Positions 42,100 through 50,433 of a DNA stretch of 64,000 nucleotides are shown here, piece by piece. Source of the DNA: Candidatus Pelagisphaera phototrophica. Lineage in GTDB: Bacteria; Verrucomicrobiota; Verrucomicrobiia; Opitutales; Opitutaceae. A model generated the notes under the pieces. It did not search any database, was not told the DNA's origin, and saw only the letters and a list, made by a program, of their open reading frames with translations. Where the stretch lies: assembly GCF_014529625.1 (NCBI RefSeq), contig NZ_CP076039.1, positions 496,001 through 560,000 of the forward strand, written 5' to 3'. Within the stretch, counting starts at the first letter, position 1, and each line of letters begins with the position of its first letter. Made by a program: the position numbers and the translations under genes.

Positions 42100-42152
42100 A
42101 CCCTGATAGCACGATCAGGGTGTGTTTTGCTTCACATGGCGCGATACATGCA
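42100..42152 (+). promoter_or_regulatory. Shared CTERM upstream block, copy A: inverted repeat plus sigma-54-like element
   Basis: ACCCTGAT (42100-42107) and ATCAGGGT (42114-42121) form a perfect 8-bp inverted repeat. After TTTTGCTTCACA comes TGGCGCGATACATGCA at 42137-42152, with GG and GC separated by 10 bp as in -24/-12 promoters. The ATG at 42166 is 15 nt after the C of GC. Confidence 0.6.
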
Positions 42153-42165
42153 CTTGGCTAGTACG

Positions 42166-42813
42166 ATGAAACCTACCGCTAATCTGCTCAAAATTAGGCT
42201 CTTCGCAGTAACGATGGGCTTGCTAATCTCAGCTTCCCTGACCCAAGCCGCACTGATAGAGAACGGGGGCTTCACTACCGATACCGCAACAGGTCTAGAT
42301 TGGCTTGATATGTATCACACGCAGGGAAATACTTACAACCAGACCTTGGCTGAGATTTCTACTGGGGAACTTGTTGGATGGCGCTTTGCAACTTCGGCGG
42401 AATTTGACGGATTGATTAGTGCTGCTGGGGTCGGAGGTTCCTACACGGAATATGGGTATTATCAAGCGATCCTCTCCGAGATGGTAACGCTGACTGAGCT
42501 TTTAGGTTCAAGTTGGAGCGGAACCAATAGCGAAATTTATCAATACTCCAATACAATGGGATTCGTAGATCCAGCAATCGGGAGCTCACAACCTGCTGGG
42601 CCGACTTTTGGTTATGTTTGACAGTTCGGCTATGACGAAGCACAGGGGGGATTATTCAGTCCCAATATTATCAATTACGACCGAGATGATCCCAGTGAAT
42701 ATTTTGGATCATTTCTCGTCCGTGCAAACTCCGTCCCCGACACAGGGTCCACAGCAGCTCTCCTTGGATTGGGTGTTGTAGCTCTTGCCTTTGCTAGGTG
42801 CAAACTGGGTTAA
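42166..42813 (+). pseudogene. VPDTG-CTERM protein A, interrupted by one in-frame TGA
   Basis: From the ATG at 42166 a signal peptide (KIRLFAVTMGLLISASLTQA) and a body with GLDWLDMYHTQGNTYNQTLA and VGWRFATSAEFDGLISA are encoded. TGA occurs at 42619-42621. The same frame continues FGYDEAQGGLFSPNIINYDR, then SVPDTGSTAALLGLGVVALA and FARCKLG to TAA. Without readthrough the product lacks its sorting signal and would be released. The body resembles a widespread exported CTERM family (T-G-L-x-W-L-D start, W-R-x-A-T-x-x-E). A TGG or CGA to TGA mutation is the simplest cause. The frame upstream of 42166 is only the conserved promoter block. Confidence 0.75.
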
Positions 42814-42818
42814 GGAGT

Positions 42819-42852
42819 GTAAAGTTTTCCGACAAATGTCGGGATATTTTAC
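42819..42852. promoter_or_regulatory. Nested palindrome about 100 bp upstream of a sigma-54-like promoter
   Basis: CCGACA-AA-TGTCGG at 42829-42842 sits inside GTAAA (42819-42823) and TTTAC (42848-42852). It is 100 bp before the GG at 42953. An identical palindrome at 47177-47210 stands 101 bp before the second copy's GG. The distance suits an enhancer-binding activator site; a weak terminator of the preceding gene is the alternative. Confidence 0.45.
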
Positions 42853-42951
42853 AGTTTTCCCAACATCAATATTTATTAGCGATTATTAATGAAATTTTAA
42901 AGTACTGATAGATAGTTACTAACAGAAAGTGCATGAAGGCATTGGTCTGTT

Positions 42952-42967
42952 TGGCACAAAAGTTGCA
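42952..42967 (+). promoter_or_regulatory. Sigma-54-type promoter TGGCACAAAAGTTGCA
   Basis: This is an exact match to the core of the RpoN consensus (TGGCAC-N5-TTGCA). The C of the -12 GC is 42966 and the ATG follows at 42980, so the predicted transcript has a leader of about 2 nt. Confidence 0.75.
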
Positions 42968-42979
42968 TGAACGATCACT

Positions 42980-43669
42980 ATGAAATTATCCGAAAGCGTA
43001 GAGCTAAAAACAGACGAAGTAAAAACGACAGATCCACGTGCTTCCAGAATGGCGAGGTATTCAGCCGCGGCGGCGGGAGTGGCTGTGGTAAGCACCCTAG
43101 ATGTCGATGCTGCCATGATCAAGGTGATCGTAACGGATACGGATGCACAAAACACAGGTTACTACGGGTTAGACCTCAGTGCGATAAAGACAGATACATC
43201 TCTTCATATGTCGCAGTATTTTTCGAGTTCCGAATCGGGTTCTTTTTTCGTTGCAGGGTTTAACGGCGGGGAAGGGCCTGTTGCCGGGTCTGTTGCCGTT
43301 AGTTCTTCCTACGGCTCTTCGTACTTACGTTCTTTTTCCAATGGATCAACCATAAGGGGTCCTTGGTATGGGATTGGTGGTACAAGTTCGGCTATTGGCT
43401 CATCATTCTTGTTCGGGTTTACGGTTCATCAAGGCTTAAGCGGTCATACAGATGGCTGGTTCAAAGTCACAATCGACGGTACATCTTCATTTACGCTTAA
43501 CAGCTACGGCTACAACTCTACACTTAATGGAGCAGCCATTGCTGGACAGGGAACTGTTGCTGGAGTTGCTGGAGTTCCAGACACTGGTCCTGGCATCGTT
43601 GGCCTTGCTCTCCTCGGGGCGGGAGCCGCTGGGGTACGCTTGTTGAGAAAGCTAAGGGCGGGCAAGTAG
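42980..43669 (+). CDS. Exported VPDTGPG-CTERM protein, second family, copy 1
   Basis: The 229-residue protein has an unusually long, polar N-region followed by ASRMARYSAAAAGVAVVSTL and DVDAA, which I read as a signal peptide with a late hydrophobic core. The body is Ser/Gly-rich and beta-like (SLHMSQYFSSSESGSFFVAG, GWFKVTIDGTSSFTLNSYGY). The C-terminus is VPDTGPGIVGLALLGAGAAG and then VRLLRKLRAGK, a sorting signal variant with Pro-Gly after VPDTG. A paralogue sits at 47338 with the same upstream DNA. It is transcribed from its own sigma-54-like promoter. The function is unknown. Confidence 0.78.
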   Translation: MKLSESVELKTDEVKTTDPRASRMARYSAAAAGVAVVSTLDVDAAMIKVIVTDTDAQNTGYYGLDLSAIKTDTSLHMSQYFSSSESGSFFVAGFNGGEGPVAGSVAVSSSYGSSYLRSFSNGSTIRGPWYGIGGTSSAIGSSFLFGFTVHQGLSGHTDGWFKVTIDGTSSFTLNSYGYNSTLNGAAIAGQGTVAGVAGVPDTGPGIVGLALLGAGAAGVRLLRKLRAGK

Positions 43670-43712
43670 TCCAAGGCTAACGCCCATCATTGGCGAACAC
43701 AGAGGGCTGTGG

Positions 43713-43778
43713 TCCACAGCAGCTCTCCTTGGATTGGGTGTTATGGCTCTAGCCTTTGCTAGGCGGAGGCTTGGATAG
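43713..43778 (+). pseudogene. Orphan VPDTG-CTERM tail fragment
   Basis: A 22-codon relic encodes STAALLGLGVMALAFARRRL-G and TAG, the 3' end of a VPDTGST gene without a body or start. It begins abruptly after the second-family gene. The equivalent relic at 48072 follows the paralogue. Confidence 0.75.
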
Positions 43779-43830
43779 GGTTCTACCTCGTAGATCGTTT
43801 CGGCGGTTGTCCCTTTCTTTATTGCAAGAA

Positions 43831-43852
43831 ACCCTGATAGAAAGATCAGGGT
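43831..43852 (+). promoter_or_regulatory. CTERM upstream inverted repeat, copy B (promoter part lost)
   Basis: ACCCTGAT (43831-43838) and ATCAGGGT (43845-43852) are intact, but the downstream bases show no TGGC or TGC elements at the expected spacing. Confidence 0.5.
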
Positions 43853-44495
43853 GACAAAAGTGTGGGTTTATGCTAATAATTTTACAGTAATTGAGGTTCT
43901 CTTTAAAATCAGGAAGTTATTTTTCGTTTTAGCACTGCTACCTGCTTCGGCCTCGGCAGCTTTGATTTTTACCATCGATACATTCACCCCTGATCAATTG
44001 ACGATCAGCATTCCTGCAGGGTCCGCGACCCTTGATGCAACAGGGACGCCTCCACCAGATAGTGATGCCTCCTATCTTTACATAATTGATCCTGACGGAT
44101 TAAACGAGAACTGGATACTTGGCGATACCAGCAGTTCGGTCAGCGGAGCAATTAATGGAATAGGCTTTTTTCAGCACGGCAGTTTTGACAGCAGTTTGGA
44201 CCCTCATGGTAGCTCTGGTGACGTATTATATTTGGACTTCAACGATCCACTCTCAGACGGCGATACGGTTACTTCTGCAATCACAGCTACATGGTCGGGA
44301 AGCAATGCATTTGACCCATCGGCCGTATCGTCGTTATCGTTAATTTGGGGAGAGGACGGATATCCTTCATCCTATCCTTTTGGCGATCCTCAGGGTACGA
44401 CATCGACATCAGCCGTCCCCGACACAGGGTCTACAGCAGCCCTCCTAGGATTAGGTGTAGCGGCTCTAGCCTTTGCTAGACGCAGGCTGGGATAG
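43851..44495 (+). CDS. VPDTG-CTERM protein B, near-identical to E with replaced 5' end
   Basis: The 214-residue product is almost identical from ALLPASASA onward to the gene at 49631: the body (FTIDTFTPDQLTISIPAGSA, SYLYIIDPDGLNENWILGDT) and the tail VPDTGSTAALLGLGVAALAF-ARRRLG match, with only three or so substitutions. The first 25 residues differ, start at a GTG at 43851 inside the end of the upstream inverted repeat, and form a poorer signal peptide. The inverted repeat ACCCTGAT/ATCAGGGT is present (43831-43852), but the GG-N10-GC element is lost. Expression is therefore doubtful, and the gene may be a silent copy. Confidence 0.7.
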   Translation: MTKVWVYANNFTVIEVLFKIRKLFFVLALLPASASAALIFTIDTFTPDQLTISIPAGSATLDATGTPPPDSDASYLYIIDPDGLNENWILGDTSSSVSGAINGIGFFQHGSFDSSLDPHGSSGDVLYLDFNDPLSDGDTVTSAITATWSGSNAFDPSAVSSLSLIWGEDGYPSSYPFGDPQGTTSTSAVPDTGSTAALLGLGVAALAFARRRLG

Positions 44496-44510
44496 GGTAT
44501 AGCTTCAGAG

Positions 44511-44533
44511 GCCCTTTGAGGGACAATTTTTTC
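44511..44533 (+). terminator. Conserved terminator-like hairpin after CTERM gene B
   Basis: CCCT-TTG-AGGG is followed by ACAATTTTTT. The same element follows CTERM genes D (48831) and E (50251), so it is part of the cassette. Confidence 0.5.
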
Positions 44534-44538
44534 TGGGG

Positions 44539-44579
44539 GCAGTTGCTGTGCTTAAGGTGATGAAGGTGTTTGTTTTCAT
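44539..44579 (-). pseudogene. 5' stub of the MKTNT membrane-protein family
   Basis: Minus-strand ATG at 44579 encodes MKTNTFITLSTATA and then runs into the conserved terminator sequence. The intact relatives at 46385 and 49484 start with the same residues. The upstream hairpin (44583-44607) is retained. Confidence 0.75.
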
Positions 44580-44582
44580 AAT

Positions 44583-44607
44583 GCGGCACTGAATAAGAAT
44601 AAGCCGC
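44583..44607 (-). promoter_or_regulatory. 5'-leader hairpin of MKTNT family (orphan copy)
   Basis: GCGGC and GCCGC arms are separated by 15 nt and end three bases (ATT) before the ATG of the stub. Confidence 0.45.
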
Positions 44608-44645
44608 ACAAAGAGGAAGATCTAAGTCGCCGTTCAGGTTACGTT

Positions 44646-45107
44646 TTGCTTTTATTTTCAATGTTTACAAGTTGTCGGACCGAAGTGCTTGACTCGCTAA
44701 AGCTATCGCTTGATTTAAAAGTAATGAGCGTCAACTTGAGCAATCCTGACGGAAAGGGTGTTTTTACGATAACTGCCATAGGCCAGAAGGAGGACACTGT
44801 GACACTAAGTATGGAGGGGAAGGTTGAGGGATATGGCTTCATCACTTTGACACACAAATATGAGTATATGTCTCAGCCAAACTCAAAGGAACGTTCACTC
44901 GGAACAGTCACCGGGGCTGCTGAAGCTATTTTAGAAGATGGCGGTCTTGTTTATGGGCCAAGACAAATGGGGACGTTCACTCGTGACAGTGATAAAATGG
45001 AGGTTTACTTTACAGATCATGTCTCAAACGGAGATCACAATTTTGTCCGCTTTGAGATTGATCTTATAAGGAAACAGTCAGACGTCTCATTTTGGTCACT
45101 CAAGTAG
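44646..45107 (+). CDS. Putative lipoprotein of unknown function
   Basis: The 153-codon frame starts at a TTG at 44646 with MLLFSMFTSCRTEVLDSLKL; FTSC could be a lipobox with Cys at residue 10, giving a very short signal. The body is beta-rich (GKGVFTITAIGQKEDTVTLS, MEGKVEGYGFITLTHKYEYM). It ends DHNFVRFEIDLIRKQSDVSF-WSLK. No family was recognised. The upstream DNA belongs to the leader of the MKTNT stub, so the gene may have been inserted or may have lost its 5' end. An in-frame ATG at 44661 is the alternative start. Confidence 0.5.
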   Translation: MLLFSMFTSCRTEVLDSLKLSLDLKVMSVNLSNPDGKGVFTITAIGQKEDTVTLSMEGKVEGYGFITLTHKYEYMSQPNSKERSLGTVTGAAEAILEDGGLVYGPRQMGTFTRDSDKMEVYFTDHVSNGDHNFVRFEIDLIRKQSDVSFWSLK

Positions 45108-45244
45108 ATTCTGTCTGGTAACAACTCATTGAGATTAATAAGAAGCACCCAGAGATGCTAGGAGGGTAGCAGCCGAGGCTAGACAAGCTGCGAGAATGGA
45201 TGGGGCAGATGGCTGACGGCTAGCTCAAAGGTTTTGAAGCCAGT

Positions 45245-45778
45245 CTAGTAAAATGCTCTGGCCAGAGGATCCTTGTCTTTAGACCATTCTCTAAAAGCCA
45301 ACGTGAAAGGATGCCAGCGGAAGCTAGGTTGTTTCTTTAATTCATCCACATCTTCCCAAAAGTCGGCGTGGGGAACGCCTAGCCCACCGAGCCACTGCCA
45401 AAGTTCTTTACGATCTGCAGCTCTTCTTAGCTCCAGCTCATAAGAATGATAATCCATCAACCCCAGCTTCCATTGAAAGCGGATATTTCCAAGATTCATG
45501 ATATTCGCTCTTTGATAAAGGGCTATTTGTTCCCACTCCCCCTTGCTTACTGAGTCAAAGTTATGATCACGCAACACTCTACCGAGCAGTTCTGAGAACC
45601 CATCATCGCGAGCATTTGCAAGCGATGCCTGGTACAAATTCACGTTCCGTTGTTGCCTTGCTTGCGAGGTGGCTACTTCTGAGTTTTATCTTAGCTCAAT
45701 AATTAGGAAAACAAGGCCGGCTAAAACGGCGACGTTACTAAGTACTGTAGTGAGAATTTGGACTGTGTTAGATTTCAT
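45245..45778 (-). pseudogene. MKTNT-family membrane protein with in-frame TAA
   Basis: The ATG at 45778 opens MKSNTVQILTTVLSNVAVLA and GLVFLIIELR, then TAA at 45686-45688, then in the same frame NSEVATSQARQQRNVNLYQA through GEWEQIALYQRANIMNLGNI to REWSKDKDPLARAFY. Intact relatives have Gln at this position (E-L-R-Q), so a single CAA-to-TAA change explains it. Restarting at 45643 would give a protein without its TM helix. The leader has its own hairpin with GGAGG (45782-45802). Confidence 0.8.
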
Positions 45779-45781
45779 AAT

Positions 45782-45802
45782 GCCTCCTGCATTAATGGAG
45801 GC
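45782..45802 (-). promoter_or_regulatory. 5'-leader hairpin with GGAGG in its 3' arm
   Basis: Read on the minus strand, GCCTCC-ATTAATGCA-GGAGGC is followed by ATT and the ATG. The sequence differs from the GCGGC/GCCGC hairpins of the relatives but has the same position, and it would mask a Shine-Dalgarno-like GGAGG. Confidence 0.5.
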
Positions 45803-45863
45803 ACCCTCAAAGCACAAATTTATTGGGAAGAAGCCGTGGCTTTATCTCAGCACTAACGAAGAC

Positions 45864-46385
45864 CTAAATCTCGTACGGGCTTTTATTATCTTTAGACCAC
45901 TCAATAAATTTCGTTCGGATTGCCCCCGCTTGGAAGTCCTTCTCCTCTGACCTTACGATTGCATCTGCCTTGAAGTCCTCGGGAACGAAAACCTCTAACC
46001 ATTCCCACAATGGAAGGCGGTTTGCGGCACTATTAATATAAAGAAGATAGATACCGTCATCGATTAAACCTTTGTTGTACTGGAACCAGATGTCTCGGGC
46101 ACGAGTCCTTTCAATTGATTCGTGGCGAGCGATCTGAAACCACTCATTTTTCGTCACGGAGTCAAAGTCATGTTGCTTGTAAACCCGGGCCATTAGCTCC
46201 GAAAATTCTTGGTCTGGTGCGTATGCTACGTTCTGGTCAATATAGCTCAATGCCCGTTGTTGGGTCATCTGAGAAAGAGCGATTGTTGAAGTCTGTCTTA
46301 GTTCAAATATAAGGAAGACCAGCCCAACGAGGACCCCGACATTGGCAGTTGCTGTACTTAATGTGATGAAGGTGTTTGTTTTCAT
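45864..46385 (-). CDS. One-TM membrane protein, MKTNT family, copy 1
   Basis: The 173-residue protein starts at the ATG at 46385 with MKTNTFITLSTATANVGVLV, a TM helix through GLVFLIFELRQ, then a cytoplasmic helical region with the pattern (F)SELMARVYKQHDFDSVTKNE, WFQIARHESIERTRARDIWF and LPLWEWLEVFVP. Similar small proteins (N-terminal V-G-V-L-V-G-x-V-F-L-x-x-E-x-x-Q helix) are scattered in marine bacteria without known function. It lies tail-to-head in the CTERM array, convergent with the CTERM genes on its right-hand cassette boundary. The frame extension to 46415 is inside the leader hairpin. Confidence 0.65.
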   Translation of the reverse strand: MKTNTFITLSTATANVGVLVGLVFLIFELRQTSTIALSQMTQQRALSYIDQNVAYAPDQEFSELMARVYKQHDFDSVTKNEWFQIARHESIERTRARDIWFQYNKGLIDDGIYLLYINSAANRLPLWEWLEVFVPEDFKADAIVRSEEKDFQAGAIRTKFIEWSKDNKSPYEI

Positions 46386-46388
46386 AAT

Positions 46389-46413
46389 GCGGTACGAAAT
46401 AAGAACAAGCCGC
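46389..46413 (-). promoter_or_regulatory. 5'-leader hairpin of MKTNT family copy 1
   Basis: GCGG (46389-46392) and CCGC (46410-46413) enclose 17 nt, and the hairpin base is separated from the ATG by ATT, as in the relatives. Confidence 0.45.
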
Positions 46414-46493
46414 ATTGAGAGGAAGAGCTAAGTGGAACTTCAGGTAGGATTTGACAAGGAAAAGCCTTAGGTAATTTCCGCTATTTGCAAGGA

Positions 46494-46546
46494 ACCCTGA
46501 TAGTACTATCAGGGTGGATTTTGCCTCACTTGGCGCGATACATGCG
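46494..46546 (+). promoter_or_regulatory. Shared CTERM upstream block, copy C
   Basis: ACCCTGAT (46494-46501) and ATCAGGGT (46508-46515) are perfect. TGGCGCGATACATGCG at 46531-46546 has GG and GC 10 bp apart. The ATG at 46560 is 15 nt after the C of GC. Confidence 0.6.
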
Positions 46547-46559
46547 TTACACAGATAAT

Positions 46560-47171
46560 ATGAAAATTAACGCCAAACTGCTCAAAATCATTCTTCTTTT
46601 GTCACTTCTCCCTGCCTCGGCCTCGGCGGTAGCTATCACCATTTTTGATGAATCCATAGACGGCGATGCCGGATCAATTCATCCGGGTGCCACAACGGTT
46701 GGGCTTACGGATGGGTCCAATATCATCGTGGGCTCACTTGGCTACGATTATGACTACTTCAGGGTTCCGGTTGACGGCAGTAGCGCGACGATTACGGACA
46801 TGATGTTGACGTTTGAAGGCAATGGATCGTCGGGGGTGAGGGAGGTATTTGTTTCGTTTTACGATAGTGAAGGAAAAGTGGGTTCGTCCACTCCTCCAAA
46901 TTTCTTTGTGCCCTTTAGCGACCAATCATTGTTCAGCGGATCGTTTGGTCCGTCCACTCCTGGATTTTCTGAATGGGCCAACAATCAAACCGAATTTCTC
47001 TTTGAGATCGTACCCGCGTACGCGACCGGGGCGGGGGCTAACAACAACTATTCGTTGCAGATCGACGCGACGGTCGTCCAATACAGTTCCGTCCCCGACA
47101 CAGGGTCCACAGCAGCTCTCCTTGGATTGGGTGTTGTAGCTCTTGCCTTTGCTAGGTGCAAACTGGGTTAA
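46560..47171 (+). CDS. VPDTG-CTERM protein C
   Basis: The 203-residue protein has a signal peptide (LLKIILLLSLLPASASA), then a beta-sandwich-like body: IHPGATTVGLTDGSNIIVGS, DYFRVPVDGSSATITDMMLT and VFVSFYDSEGKVGSS. The tail is SSVPDTGSTAALLGLGVVAL-AFARCKLG. The 3' end, including the sorting signal, is identical to that of protein A, showing that this part was copied with the downstream DNA. The start ATG at 46560 follows the sigma-54-like element at fixed spacing; the in-frame extension to 46485 is promoter DNA. Presumably it is exosortase-processed and surface-located. Confidence 0.8.
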   Translation: MKINAKLLKIILLLSLLPASASAVAITIFDESIDGDAGSIHPGATTVGLTDGSNIIVGSLGYDYDYFRVPVDGSSATITDMMLTFEGNGSSGVREVFVSFYDSEGKVGSSTPPNFFVPFSDQSLFSGSFGPSTPGFSEWANNQTEFLFEIVPAYATGAGANNNYSLQIDATVVQYSSVPDTGSTAALLGLGVVALAFARCKLG

Positions 47172-47176
47172 GGAGT

Positions 47177-47210
47177 GTAAAGTTTTCCGACAAATGTCGG
47201 GATGTTTTAC
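47177..47210. promoter_or_regulatory. Nested palindrome, second copy
   Basis: GTAAA...CCGACA-AA-TGTCGG...TTTAC, identical in its core to 42819-42852, lies 101 bp upstream of the GG of the promoter at 47310. Confidence 0.45.
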
Positions 47211-47309
47211 AGTTTTCCCAACATCAATATTTATTAGCGATTATTAATGAAATTTTAAAGTACTGATAGCTAGTTGCTAACAGAAAGTGCATGAAGGCAT
47301 TGGTCTGTT

Positions 47310-47325
47310 TGGCACAAAAGTTGCA
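47310..47325 (+). promoter_or_regulatory. Sigma-54-type promoter TGGCACAAAAGTTGCA, second copy
   Basis: The sequence is identical to that at 42952. The C of the -12 GC is 47324 and the ATG is at 47338, 14 nt later. Confidence 0.75.
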
Positions 47326-47337
47326 TAAACGATCACT

Positions 47338-48030
47338 ATGAAATTGGCCGAAAACGTAGGGAACGAAACAAGTGAAAAAGGTGTGTTCAACTCACGCACT
47401 TCCAGAATGGCGAGGTACTCAGCCGCAGCGGCGGGAGTGGCTGCGGTAAGCTCTCTAGAAGTAGATGCTGCCATGATCAAGGTGATCGTAACGGATCCGC
47501 TTGCACAAGGCACAAGTTTCTACTATTTAGACCTCAGCACGATAAAGCCCGATACAACTCTTCACATGTCCCAGTATTTTTCGAGTTCCGAATCGGGTTC
47601 TGCTTTCGTTGCAGGGTTTAACAGCGGGCAAGGGTCTGTTGTCGTTAGTTCTTCCTATGCTTCTTCGCACTTACGTTCTTTTTCCAATGGATCAACCATA
47701 CGGGGTCCTGGGGATTTATTTGGTTATTTAAGTTCGACTAGTTACCTTTCGGGCTCATCATTCTTGCTCGGGTTTAGGATTAATCAAGGCTCAAGCGATT
47801 ATACAAACGGCTGGTTCAAAGTCACAATCGACGGTACATCTTCATTCACGCTTAACAGCTACGGCTACAACTCTACGCTTAATGGAGCAGCCATTGCTGG
47901 GCAGGGAACTGTTGCTGGAGCTCCTGTTGCTGGAGTTCCAGATACTGGTCCTGGCATCGTTGGCCTTGCTCTCCTCGGGGCGGGAGCCGCTGGGGTCCGC
48001 TTGCTACGAAAGCTAAGGGCTGGCAAGTAG
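47338..48030 (+). CDS. Exported VPDTGPG-CTERM protein, second family, copy 2
   Basis: This 230-residue paralogue of the gene at 42980 has the same N-terminal arrangement (TSRMARYSAAAAGVAAVSSL, EVDAA), conserved strands (LHMSQYFSSSESGSAFVAGF, GWFKVTIDGTSSFTLNSYGY) and tail VPDTGPGIVGLALLGAGAAG. The middle (about residues 100-145) and the stretch before the signal core have diverged, while the 3' third is nearly identical at DNA level. This suggests duplication plus gene conversion. It is followed 41 bp later by an orphan CTERM tail. The function is unknown. Confidence 0.78.
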   Translation: MKLAENVGNETSEKGVFNSRTSRMARYSAAAAGVAAVSSLEVDAAMIKVIVTDPLAQGTSFYYLDLSTIKPDTTLHMSQYFSSSESGSAFVAGFNSGQGSVVVSSSYASSHLRSFSNGSTIRGPGDLFGYLSSTSYLSGSSFLLGFRINQGSSDYTNGWFKVTIDGTSSFTLNSYGYNSTLNGAAIAGQGTVAGAPVAGVPDTGPGIVGLALLGAGAAGVRLLRKLRAGK

Positions 48031-48071
48031 TCCAAGGCTAACGCCCATCGTTGGTGAGTACAGGGGTCTGT

Positions 48072-48140
48072 GGCTCCACAGCGGCCCTTTTTGGAGCTGG
48101 CGTTGCGGCTCTAGCCTTTGCTAGGCGCAGACTGGGATAA
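48072..48140 (+). pseudogene. Orphan VPDTG-CTERM tail fragment, second copy
   Basis: The relic encodes GSTAALFGAGVAALAFARRR-LG and TAA without an upstream body. It is the counterpart of the fragment at 43713, so it was part of the duplicated block. Confidence 0.75.
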
Positions 48141-48192
48141 GGTATCGATGTTTTAGGTCGTTTAGGCGGTCGTCCCTTTTTTTTTGCAAGCA

Positions 48193-48245
48193 ACCCTGAT
48201 AGTACGATCGGGGTGCATTTTGCCTCACTTGGCACGAGACATGCA
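48193..48245 (+). promoter_or_regulatory. Shared CTERM upstream block, copy D
   Basis: ACCCTGAT (48193-48200) pairs with ATCGGGGT (48207-48214), one G-T wobble. TGGCACGAGACATGCA at 48230-48245 is a good GG-N10-GC element. The ATG at 48259 is 15 nt after the C of GC. Confidence 0.62.
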
Positions 48246-48258
48246 TGAGGAAAATACA

Positions 48259-48816
48259 ATGAAACTTGCCGCGAATCTGCTCAAAATCAGTCTCCTGTTA
48301 GCGCTTCTCCCTGCTTCGGCATCGGCGGTAACCATTACCATCTCGGCTCCGAGCGACTCGGCGACCGAAATAACACTCACGGCCACTGGGACATATTACT
48401 TCCCGCTTCAAAATGCCATTTCTTTTTCCGATATAGGGGATTATATCGGAAACGACGGGCCAGATGATAGGGTGGTAAATCTGTCAGCTGGGATACTTGC
48501 AAACGGAGCAGCATCAACTATTACTTACTTGGACACTGATGCCGGAGGAGGAGACGATTTTTGGCTCGGTTTTAGCACCTTATTGTACGGCTCCTATACG
48601 GTCTCAGGCAGCGCCACGGCAGACCTGTCGACAATTGGGCATACTTTTGGCCAGCTTAACATAGGAACGTATGAGTCTGGCGGCAATAGTTTGATAGTTC
48701 AGTACAGCTCCGTCCCCGACACAGGCTCCCCCCCCGTCCCCGACACAGGGTCCACAGCAGTTCTTCTTGGAGCTGGTATAGTAGCTCTATCCCTTGCGAG
48801 ACGCAGGCTGGTTTAA
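48259..48816 (+). CDS. VPDTG-CTERM protein D with doubled VPDTGS motif
   Basis: The 185-residue protein has a signal peptide (NLLKISLLLALLPASASA), a body with ITLTATGTYYFPLQNAISFS and YLDTDAGGGDDFWLGFSTLL, and the tail SSVPDTGSPPVPDTGSTAVL, then LGAGIVALSLARRRLV. The recognition motif is present twice, 8 residues apart, with only the second next to the TM helix. This looks like a tail added onto a pre-existing tail by recombination. Start and promoter spacing are as in the other members. A terminator-like hairpin follows at 48831. Confidence 0.8.
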   Translation: MKLAANLLKISLLLALLPASASAVTITISAPSDSATEITLTATGTYYFPLQNAISFSDIGDYIGNDGPDDRVVNLSAGILANGAASTITYLDTDAGGGDDFWLGFSTLLYGSYTVSGSATADLSTIGHTFGQLNIGTYESGGNSLIVQYSSVPDTGSPPVPDTGSTAVLLGAGIVALSLARRRLV

Positions 48817-48830
48817 GAACAACTTCAGAA

Positions 48831-48853
48831 GCCCTTTGAGGGACAATTTTTTC
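48831..48853 (+). terminator. Conserved terminator-like hairpin after CTERM gene D
   Basis: CCCT-TTG-AGGG is followed by ACAATTTTTT. Outer bases CAGAA and TTCTG can extend the pairing. Confidence 0.5.
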
Positions 48854-48938
48854 TGGAGGCAGTTGATCCAATCTGTTCAGATACTAAATTCAAATTTTAA
48901 GCGTTCTAGACTCATGGATAAGTCGCAATCAAAGTACA

Positions 48939-49484
48939 TCAGAAGGTCTTTTGTACTCCTATGCCACCGATTGGACTCTCATTGAGCTTTGCCCATTCTA
49001 CGAACTTCGAAGAGTGCAACGTTGGTTCAAAATTGGATTTATTTGCATGAGCTTCTACGGCGGCAGTGTACTCAGGGTTTACAGAGACGATCCTGAGCCA
49101 TTTCCAGAGAGGTAGTCTAGTAGCTCCCATTCCAAGACTAAATTCGGCGATACTTTTGTCTATAAGACCTTCTTTGTGTTGGAAGAAGACATCTTCTAGC
49201 CGCGTCATACGGGCAAGTTCATAGTTTGCTAACTGGTTCCACTCATCATCAGAAACAGAATCAAAGTCGGTACCCCTGATTGCTCGGTTAAGAAGATTTG
49301 AGAACTCTTCATCCTGAGCATAGTCTGAATATTCTTGGATGACACTTAAGGATCTCTCTTGCCTAATCTGAGAAAGAGCGATTGCTGAATTCTGTTTAAT
49401 TTCAAAGATAAGGAATACCAGTCCTACAAGGACCCCGACGTTGGCAGTTGCTGTACTTAATGTGATGAAGGTGTTTGTTTTCAT
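48939..49484 (-). CDS. One-TM membrane protein, MKTNT family, copy 2
   Basis: The 181-residue protein begins MKTNTFITLSTATANVGVLV and GLVFLIFEIKQNSAIALSQI, then has helices with DEEFSNLLNRAIRGTDFDSV, SDDEWNQLANYELARMTRLE and LPLWKWLRIVSV, ending HSSKFVEWAKLNESP. It aligns end to end with the copy at 46385, while the N-terminal 50 bases and leader are almost identical at DNA level. The C-terminal half has diverged. It points away from CTERM gene E across a shared leader region of about 150 bp, so the two promoters are back to back. Confidence 0.68.
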   Translation of the reverse strand: MKTNTFITLSTATANVGVLVGLVFLIFEIKQNSAIALSQIRQERSLSVIQEYSDYAQDEEFSNLLNRAIRGTDFDSVSDDEWNQLANYELARMTRLEDVFFQHKEGLIDKSIAEFSLGMGATRLPLWKWLRIVSVNPEYTAAVEAHANKSNFEPTLHSSKFVEWAKLNESPIGGIGVQKTF

Positions 49485-49487
49485 AAT

Positions 49488-49512
49488 GCGGCACTAGATA
49501 GGCATAAGCCGC
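49488..49512 (-). promoter_or_regulatory. 5'-leader hairpin of MKTNT family copy 2
   Basis: GCGGC (49488-49492) and GCCGC (49508-49512) are separated by 15 nt, with ATT between the hairpin and the ATG. Confidence 0.45.
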
Positions 49513-49564
49513 ATCAAGAGGAAGAGCTAAGTGGCTTTAATACCCCTACCCTTTTTTGCAAGGA

Positions 49565-49617
49565 ACCCTGATAGCACGATCAGGGTGCATTTTGCTTCAC
49601 TTGGCGCGAGACATGCC
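49565..49617 (+). promoter_or_regulatory. Shared CTERM upstream block, copy E
   Basis: ACCCTGAT (49565-49572) and ATCAGGGT (49579-49586) are perfect. TGGCGCGAGACATGCC at 49602-49617 has GG and GC 10 bp apart. The ATG at 49631 is 15 nt after the C of GC. Confidence 0.6.
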
Positions 49618-49630
49618 TAAGTTGGAAACG

Positions 49631-50236
49631 ATGAAATTTTCCGCCAATCTGCTCAAAATCAGTCTTCTTATGGCACTGCTACCTGCTTCGGCCTCGGCAG
49701 CTTTGATTTTTACCATCGATACATTCACCCCTGATCAATTGACGATCAGCATTCCTGCAGGGTCCGCGACCCTTGATGCAACAGGGACGCCTCCACCAGA
49801 TAGTGATGCCTCCTATCTTTACATAATTGATCCTGACGGATTAAACGAGAACTGGATACTTGGCGATACCAGCAGTTCGGTCAGCGGAGCAATTAATGGA
49901 ATAGGCTTTTTTCAGCACGGCAGTTTTGACAGCAGTTTGGACCCTCATGATAGCTCTGGTGACGTATTATATTTGGCCTTCAACGATCCACTCTCAGACG
50001 GCGATACGGTTACTTCTGCAATCACAGCTACATGGTCGGGAAGCAATGCATTTGACCCATCGGCCGTATCGTCGTTATCGTTAATTTGGGGAGAGGACGG
50101 ATATCCTTCATCCTATCCTTTTGGCGATCCTCAGGGTACGACATCGACATCAGCCGTCCCCGACACAGGGTCTACAGCAGCCCTCCTAGGAGTAGGTGTA
50201 GCGGCTCTAGTCTTTGCTAGGCGCAAGCTGGGTTAA
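49631..50236 (+). CDS. VPDTG-CTERM protein E
   Basis: The 201-residue protein has a clean signal peptide (MKFSANLLKISLLMALLPAS, ASA), the body FTIDTFTPDQLTISIPAGSA to IWGEDGYPSSYPFGDPQGTT, and the tail SAVPDTGSTAALLGVGVAAL-VFARRKLG. The DNA from about 49673 to 50236 is nearly identical to 43923-44495. As it has the complete upstream block, E is the better candidate for the expressed copy. The body has no recognised enzyme motif. It is the last member of the array. Confidence 0.82.
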   Translation: MKFSANLLKISLLMALLPASASAALIFTIDTFTPDQLTISIPAGSATLDATGTPPPDSDASYLYIIDPDGLNENWILGDTSSSVSGAINGIGFFQHGSFDSSLDPHDSSGDVLYLAFNDPLSDGDTVTSAITATWSGSNAFDPSAVSSLSLIWGEDGYPSSYPFGDPQGTTSTSAVPDTGSTAALLGVGVAALVFARRKLG

Positions 50237-50250
50237 GAACAGCTTCAGAA

Positions 50251-50276
50251 GTCCTTTGAGGGACAATTTTTTCTGG
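50251..50276 (+). terminator. Conserved terminator-like hairpin after CTERM gene E
   Basis: GTCCT-TTGA-GGGAC is a 5-bp stem including one T-G pair, followed by AATTTTTT. Confidence 0.55.
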
Positions 50277-50433
50277 GGGCAGTGATGCATATACATTGCG
50301 ATGCTGCCGCCCCCCGCGACCCCGTCCCCCTTGCCTGCCTTCATCAAGATCAGCTGTCTCATAACACCAAGATCAGAGTGTTGCCAAAATGGTTTTAGTG
50401 GCAGCTATACGTCATTAAGCATTTATTTCCCCA

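Follow-up and report, generated by a model that had tools for sequence, protein, structure and literature searches.

What kind of genetic unit do the closely packed genes at positions 42100-50276 of the window form, and how would they be controlled? The window is the whole 64,000-nucleotide stretch of Candidatus Pelagisphaera phototrophica analysed here, i.e. positions 496001-560000 of a single-contig 4.09-Mb genome. A sequence-only reading had described at this place five genes (A to E) for exported proteins with a VPDTG-type sorting tail (CTERM), two genes of a second exported family and, between them on the opposite strand, small membrane proteins starting with MKTNT (the MKTNT/MKSNT, or MK, family). 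The array is probably a duplicated, partly decayed exosortase-substrate cluster within a genome-wide set, and the sequences argue for a sigma-54/PrsR-type exosortase-substrate regulon with modular cargo, an explanation that we regard, taken as a whole, as probable.

Sorting tails and layout of the array

Inspection of open reading frames (ORFs) and translations recovered the VPDTGST tails of all five genes, and in a profile search of the window proteins B, C, D and E passed both PF18205 and TIGR03778. Two of the five genes are nevertheless damaged: A is interrupted by an in-frame TGA, and its tail, separated from the gene by this stop, exceeded the TIGR03778 cut-off in the genome search, whereas B is start-less (by eye against its relatives, ATT stands in place of ATG and GT in place of the -24 GG). 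An intact relative of gene A, with the same start and signal peptide (213 aa), occurs in the metagenome-assembled genome (MAG) NP1444, at locus L262. The home genome contains 38 TIGR03778 matches at E up to 0.1, of which 35 lie above the cut-off. The proposed exosortase-type sorting tails are thus supported by model matches, and an exosortase, RpoN, PrsK and PrsR are encoded in the genome; N-terminal signal peptides, assigned by eye and by a hydrophobicity rule, are putative. Both second-family genes carry VPDTGPG as described, and this family has seven matches at six places in the home genome; by eye, its tail resembles CTERM in VPDTGPG, a hydrophobic stretch and RKLRAGK.

The twofold order of units is indeed a segmental duplication, with copies 4346-4361 bp apart (approx. 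4.36 kb). The orphan CTERM tails, the intact minus-strand MKTNT genes and one palindrome 5' of each of A to E were likewise recovered, and unit 1 holds as extras an MKSNT-type pseudogene, a truncated MK 5' end and a small ORF. Sigma-54-like elements exist for A, C, D, E and both second-family genes and not for B, whose -24 GG is lost; two of the three terminators were called by our scan, the one after D being uncalled. The features are as follows (strand in brackets).

42100-42121 (+), 22-bp palindrome 5' of gene A, by pattern search of genome and window
42135-42151 (+), sigma-54-like GG-N10-GC of gene A, GG 16 nt past the palindrome
42166-42813 (+), CTERM gene A, in-frame TGA at 42619-42621, tail from 42733
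42818-42853 (no strand), PrsR-type motif 1 inverted pair (TGTCGG-N5-TTTACA), by comparison with Haft 2006
42951-42966 (+), sigma-54 consensus element TTGGCACAAAAGTTGC 5' of second-family gene 1
42980-43669 (+), second-family gene 1, VPDTGPG tail
43711-43781 (+), orphan CTERM tail
43831-43852 (+), palindrome 5' of gene B
43851-44495 (+), CTERM gene B, without ATG and without -24 GG
44503-44532 (+), terminator-like hairpin and T-run 3' of gene B, scan call at 44503-44521
44538-44639 (-), truncated MKTNT 5' end, repeat family D7
44646-45107 (+), small ORF, without a family match above cut-off in the profile search
45245-45778 (-), MKSNT-type membrane gene with in-frame TAA
45864-46385 (-), MKTNT membrane gene 1, intact
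46494-46515 (+), palindrome between divergent MKTNT gene 1 and gene C
46529-46545 (+), sigma-54-like element of gene C
46560-47171 (+), CTERM gene C
47176-47211 (no strand), PrsR-type motif 1 inverted pair
47309-47324 (+), sigma-54 consensus element TTGGCACAAAAGTTGC 5' of second-family gene 2
47338-48030 (+), second-family gene 2, VPDTGPG tail
48073-48143 (+), orphan CTERM tail
48193-48214 (+), palindrome 5' of gene D
48228-48244 (+), sigma-54-like element of gene D
48259-48816 (+), CTERM gene D
48832-48852 (+), terminator-like sequence 3' of gene D, missed by the terminator scan
48939-49484 (-), MKTNT membrane gene 2, intact
49565-49586 (+), palindrome between divergent MKTNT gene 2 and gene E
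49600-49616 (+), sigma-54-like element of gene E
49631-50236 (+), CTERM gene E
50251-50272 (+), terminator-like hairpin and T-run 3' of gene E, scan call at 50251-50264

The damage to A, B and one MK copy, together with the fragments found at other loci, could suggest that these genes are mostly relics of neutral duplication and decay with little expression. This appears improbable, as three CTERM genes (C, D, E), the two second-family genes and two MK genes remain intact and have a conserved promoter spacing, and as the ratio of nonsynonymous to synonymous substitutions (dN/dS) in the N-terminal part of MK proteins is 0.10-0.13, the C-terminal part being too diverged for this measure (only 1 of 21 and 1 of 10 pairs could be used).

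Promoters, PrsR and the exosortase

Both second-family genes of the window are preceded by a perfect motif-1 inverted pair, followed by 97 nt and then by the sigma-54 element. The motif-1 scan covered the window and the fetched home stretches, the pattern TGTCG-N6-TTTACA having been written down after the window and the relatives' sequences were viewed. A third such pair with its consensus sigma-54 element stands before the second-family copy at 2213.6 kb; of the family's remaining three members, one is truncated and the palindrome is present at the other two.

This arrangement can be compared with the PEP-CTERM/EpsH system. In the portion of Haft et al. (2006; PMC1569441) available to us, substrates with a signal peptide and a C-terminal tail likewise go with an exosortase, PrsK, PrsR and a PrsT-like gene, and a 17-nt motif ending in TTTACA likewise lies upstream of a -24/-12 sigma-54 element, with a spacer of 32-92 nt versus 97 nt here. 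That portion reports the DNA motif with PrsK-PrsR only in Proteobacteria among their genomes, and Verrucomicrobium spinosum without PrsK/R/T. The present case differs further by its VPDTG tail, its relatives among Opitutales MAGs and a second promoter class, with a palindrome next to the -24 element.

RpoN and five sigma-54 activators (E up to 1e-20) are encoded in the home genome. One of these activators, at 359.6 kb, is PrsR (594.4 bits, cut-off 502.6); PrsK is adjacent to it (370.9 bits, cut-off 300), and an exosortase whose best exosortase model is TIGR04151 (XrtC) is found a few kilobases away. The cluster as a whole (L181:4495-17030, genome approx. 349.5-362.0 kb) comprises a CTERM gene, the exosortase, PrsT-like, PrsK and PrsR genes, and an exopolysaccharide-export-like gene.

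Among 38 genomes, PrsR exceeds its cut-off in seven (home genome included), all seven with CTERM matches above cut-off, and PrsT, PrsK and PrsR adjoin each other in each of the five PrsR-positive relatives examined, out of six. Sigma-54 elements, scored with a threshold of 8 of 11 set after looking, were detected at 20 of the 27 CTERM genes of relatives with PrsR (shuffle mean 0.56, maximum 5) versus 2 of 14 in relatives without it (mean 0.35, maximum 3). This count excludes the home genome and is based on CTERM genes of at least 120 aa: 58 of the relatives' 65 CTERM matches were fetched and 41 used, 17 being dropped, 7 because they lacked a start codon and 10 because they were shorter than 120 aa. 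Because of this post hoc threshold and the relatedness of the genomes, the Fisher p for the contrast (0.00035) is only indicative. A loose motif-1 pattern accompanies 11/20 sigma-54-bearing CTERM genes of PrsR-positive relatives.

The palindrome upstream of genes A to E consists of 8-bp arms and a 6-bp centre. Its occurrence is not due to chance, as 18 places in the genome match it at up to 3 mismatches versus one for the reversed pattern; a 19th site, with 5 mismatches, was found within the window and fetched home stretches, to which that search extended. Apart from the one at 1927437, each of the 19 is followed by a CTERM or second-family gene or by what remains of one, and the sister genome G002 has two, 5' of a CTERM gene and of the start of another exported-looking gene. 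GG-N10-GC begins 16 nt past the palindrome at 7/19 sites and 7 nt past it at 3/19 (background 0.0038 per position), two main spacings that differ by 9 bp, near one helix turn. From the end of the -12 GC to the ATG there are 14 nt at C, D and E and 13 nt at the two second-family genes of the window. Terminator calls made by the scan at two palindromes and at both motif-1 pairs were rejected because these lie upstream of start codons, and sigma-70 promoters in the window (14 matches versus 11.2 expected) were given no weight.

Several observations, however, weigh against one regulon of this type. No match to motif 1, with up to 1 mismatch, was detected at the promoters of A to E, and palindrome-type genes more generally lack it in the sequences scanned. 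GG-N10-GC is missing from the 70 bases that follow the palindrome at seven of the 19 sites, and at two more it occurs only at other offsets; moreover, as the sites are paralogues, their shared spacing is not independent evidence. The centre of the palindrome lies approximately 43-52 bp before the predicted start, which is close for an enhancer site. Transcription from sigma-54 promoters begins 11-12 nt past the -12 GC; with this GC so near the ATG, the predicted transcripts would thus be almost leaderless. The second-family tails (42980-43666, 47338-48027) matched none of the families, CTERM models included. The exosortase scores 275.7 bits on TIGR04151 (cut-off 300) and the PrsT-like gene beside PrsK and PrsR 281.2 bits (cut-off 312.2), both below cut-off, and the home exosortase finds a match in the stretches of only two of five PrsR-positive relatives. 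Finally, CTERM genes are kept in 6 of the 31 genomes without PrsR above cut-off, and loose motif 1 also occurs at 2/2 sigma-54-bearing CTERM genes of PrsR-negative relatives, which weakens the PrsR contrast somewhat.

In the sigma-54/PrsR-type regulon that we favour, PrsK and PrsR would activate the sigma-54 polymerase at second-family genes via the motif-1 pair, and another, putative regulator would do so at palindrome-type genes. Products would be exported by Sec and cut at VPDTG by the XrtC-like exosortase, and the cargo might then be displayed on the surface or released into an exopolysaccharide matrix; export, cutting and matrix placement are proposed by analogy with known families. The VPDSG-CTERM/XrtC system (TIGR03778, PF18205, TIGR04151) shares the tail models and the best exosortase model, and differs in that here the exosortase falls below the XrtC cut-off, the array has VPDTG for VPDSG, and the second-family VPDTGPG tail lies outside the models. 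In the available portion of the study on Aquincola tertiaricarbonis (PMC9850573), the PEP-CTERM gene pepA similarly has a -24/-12 promoter with measured RpoN dependence, and a measured role in floc formation; this is a single gene from another phylum, and that portion mentions neither palindrome nor cargo exchange. In the open-licence literature, VPDSG-CTERM was not found by name, and PEP-CTERM, Verrucomicrobi and sigma-54 were found together only in Haft et al. (2006).

Exchange of cargo between conserved ends

The CTERM genes were compared in aligned 60-nt windows. Identity between B and E is 98-100% within the cargo but drops to 36-79% upstream of it. A and C resemble each other in promoter and signal peptide (80, 73%) and in the tail (85-100%), with unrelated cargo, and D and E have both ends in common (79-84%, 77-95%) and not the cargo. 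The cargo families of the array recur at other loci. Comparison of seven MKTNT copies gave 81-96% DNA identity over the first 45 codons and 46-68% over the remainder, and in one chimera an MKSNT start is fused to an end of MKTNT type. On these comparisons, CTERM and MK genes are both mosaic, their ends being conserved and their middle parts exchanged. This exchange of cargo supports the earlier suggestion that the variable exported proteins form a locally expanding family. Genome-wide, this is a scattered, partly decayed surface-protein gene family of interchangeable parts: switch, export signal, cargo and sorting tail. Each gene would consist of a promoter block with signal peptide (of palindrome type at A to E), a variable cargo, and a VPDTG tail with terminator, and recombination between the conserved ends would swap the cargo.

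At the palindrome itself, 23 sites from three genomes fall into eight upstream and seven downstream sequence classes (threshold derived from shuffled sequences), four upstream and three downstream classes having a single site; upstream class E is found with four downstream classes (A, B, C, E), and six upstream classes are found with downstream A. Such varied combinations right at the palindrome could point to a site-specific recombination site, the genes being integron-like surface-display cassettes. Phage-integrase-like fragments are also present near the CTERM tail at 610.9 kb (L182:8870-9355, within L182:8381-9355, above the Pfam cut-off) and at L261:6836-7183 (below it). Exchange is, however, also seen at the signal-peptide and tail blocks, as homologous recombination would give, and the fixed spacing to the promoter element suits an operator. 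Integron arrays have their genes in one orientation, whereas MK and CTERM genes are on opposite strands, and a single Pfam-supported recombinase fragment was found in the home stretches tested, no genome-wide integrase search having been made. A recombination site thus appears improbable. Further integrase-like fragments, recognized by eye or mutual similarity (the remainder of L182:8381-9355, L183:4232-4549, L261:3533-3895), lie beside CTERM, second-family or MK loci.

One cargo contains a ubiquitin domain (PF00240, 80.0 bits, cut-off 25.4) between a signal peptide and a VPDTG tail (genome 3654379-3655116, L078:6380-7117). It has strong Protein Data Bank (PDB) matches to ubiquitin chains, its gene at 3654.4 kb lies beside a palindrome and an MK pair, and in alignment its LLQRVAG stands opposite ubiquitin's LVLRLRG. 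NP1444 also encodes a ubiquitin-domain cargo (L262:4099-4836). Judged by title and abstract start, none of the open-licence papers matched to ubiquitin, PEP-CTERM and exosortase together deals with such a cargo, and by title none of the open-licence matches listed for bacterial ubiquitin does so either. The model of the B/E cargo consists mostly of beta strands (predicted local distance difference test, pLDDT, 64.1); its top PDB matches, to a cellulase (E 0.003), a flagellar-like filament and cohesin (E 0.01-0.02), were too weak to identify it. That the palindrome might be an active joint (recombinase or hot spot) assembling display cassettes, any coding piece, even ubiquitin, being captured and MK proteins acting as matched membrane partners, is a long shot.

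The MK family and its link to CTERM genes

MKTNT/MKSNT proteins are genus-restricted, small single-helix membrane proteins, mosaic too. Three copies gave no Pfam or NCBIfam match above cut-off and 16 copies none in Pfam; no PDB sequence match was obtained at E up to 1, the AlphaFold model is all-helical (pLDDT 84.8; best PDB fold match E 1.6), and no relative was confirmed on a viral contig. An inverted repeat, ATGCGGC...GCCGCAT, ends right before the MKTNT start codon (e.g. window 49485-49525); it is exact in 5/8 home MKTNT copies, which show no clear ribosome-binding site.

Do these proteins and the CTERM proteins form one system, as the sequence-only reading had proposed? At home their adjacency is strong. 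The genome has 28 MK matches. Of 19 MK clusters, 11 have a CTERM or second-family gene no more than 2.5 kb away, whereas 20,000 placements under the null gave a mean of 0.66 and a maximum of 5. Head-to-head arrangements of an MK gene (in one case a fragment) and a CTERM or second-family gene or its remnant around a palindrome occur at eight places, six of which have the MK genes in pairs. Such a layout, found again in NP1444, would suit a partner, an assembly factor or an immunity-like pair transcribed from a common divergent region. Of the two closest pairs of MK C-terminal parts, one (the copy that faces E, with the second of the copies at 2735.8 kb) is accompanied by cargo of distant relationship, but the other (541.9 and 2986.7 kb) faces unrelated cargo.

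In relatives the association nearly disappears. The MK family was detected in 5/38 genomes, all of one genus, and in the same-genus relatives G001, G006, G007 and G009 one of ten MK loci (in G001) is near a CTERM tail, close to the lack of enrichment that the earlier reading had named as the mark of an accidental link. Of the genomes with MK genes, G006 yields two weak CTERM matches, both on other contigs and one of them above cut-off, and G009, which is 85% complete, yields none; conversely, CTERM genes but no MK match are found in G002, G008 and G010. A search allowing up to 3 mismatches found no palindrome in G006 or G009, and one allowing up to 4 found it at only one of the seven MK loci scanned in other genomes, L262 of NP1444. 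A GTDB scan, which misses distant relatives because it started from short seeds, returned nine MK loci, four of them G001/G006 loci again. Among the other five, a CTERM gene or tail is adjacent to the MK genes in L262 and L269, which both belong to NP1444; in L261 an orphan tail lies approximately 1.5 kb off, and L264 and L266 have no such neighbour. The NP1444 contigs (L262, PBZS01000083.1; L269, PBZS01000081.1) are titled Gammaproteobacteria and their genes are Opitutales-type; the title may be wrong or the contigs misplaced.

Because adjacency is strong at home, nearly absent in sister species, and recurs in NP1444 and once in G001, co-duplication in this lineage is likelier than one system, which we hold to be unlikely though worth weighing. 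MKTNT/MKSNT genes would have been copied head-to-head with CTERM genes, and a functional role with CTERM proteins is putative.

A short dispersed element was also observed. In the form ACAATTTTTTCTGGGGGCAG, it has 15 home matches at up to 2 mismatches, nine directly after a TIGR03778 tail, and by eye it stands just upstream of 5/8 other-species MK genes (one gene clipped by the contig end). In the form ACAATTTTTTCTGGGGGCAGTTGAT, it follows CTERM tails at window 44512-44560, 48832-48870 and 50252-50285, and lies upstream of MK genes of other species in L149, L150, L151, L152 and L261. The element was considered as a cause of MK-CTERM adjacency and not adopted; it is kept as an unexplained lead.

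The sigma-54/PrsR-type regulon with modular cargo, if correct, would extend PrsK/PrsR/sigma-54-type control of exosortase substrates to a genus of Opitutales, for which it provides an exact, testable promoter set. The surface or matrix repertoire of these bacteria could then diversify via cargo swaps between fixed ends, and such swapping would explain why proteins of this kind have tails in common and little else.

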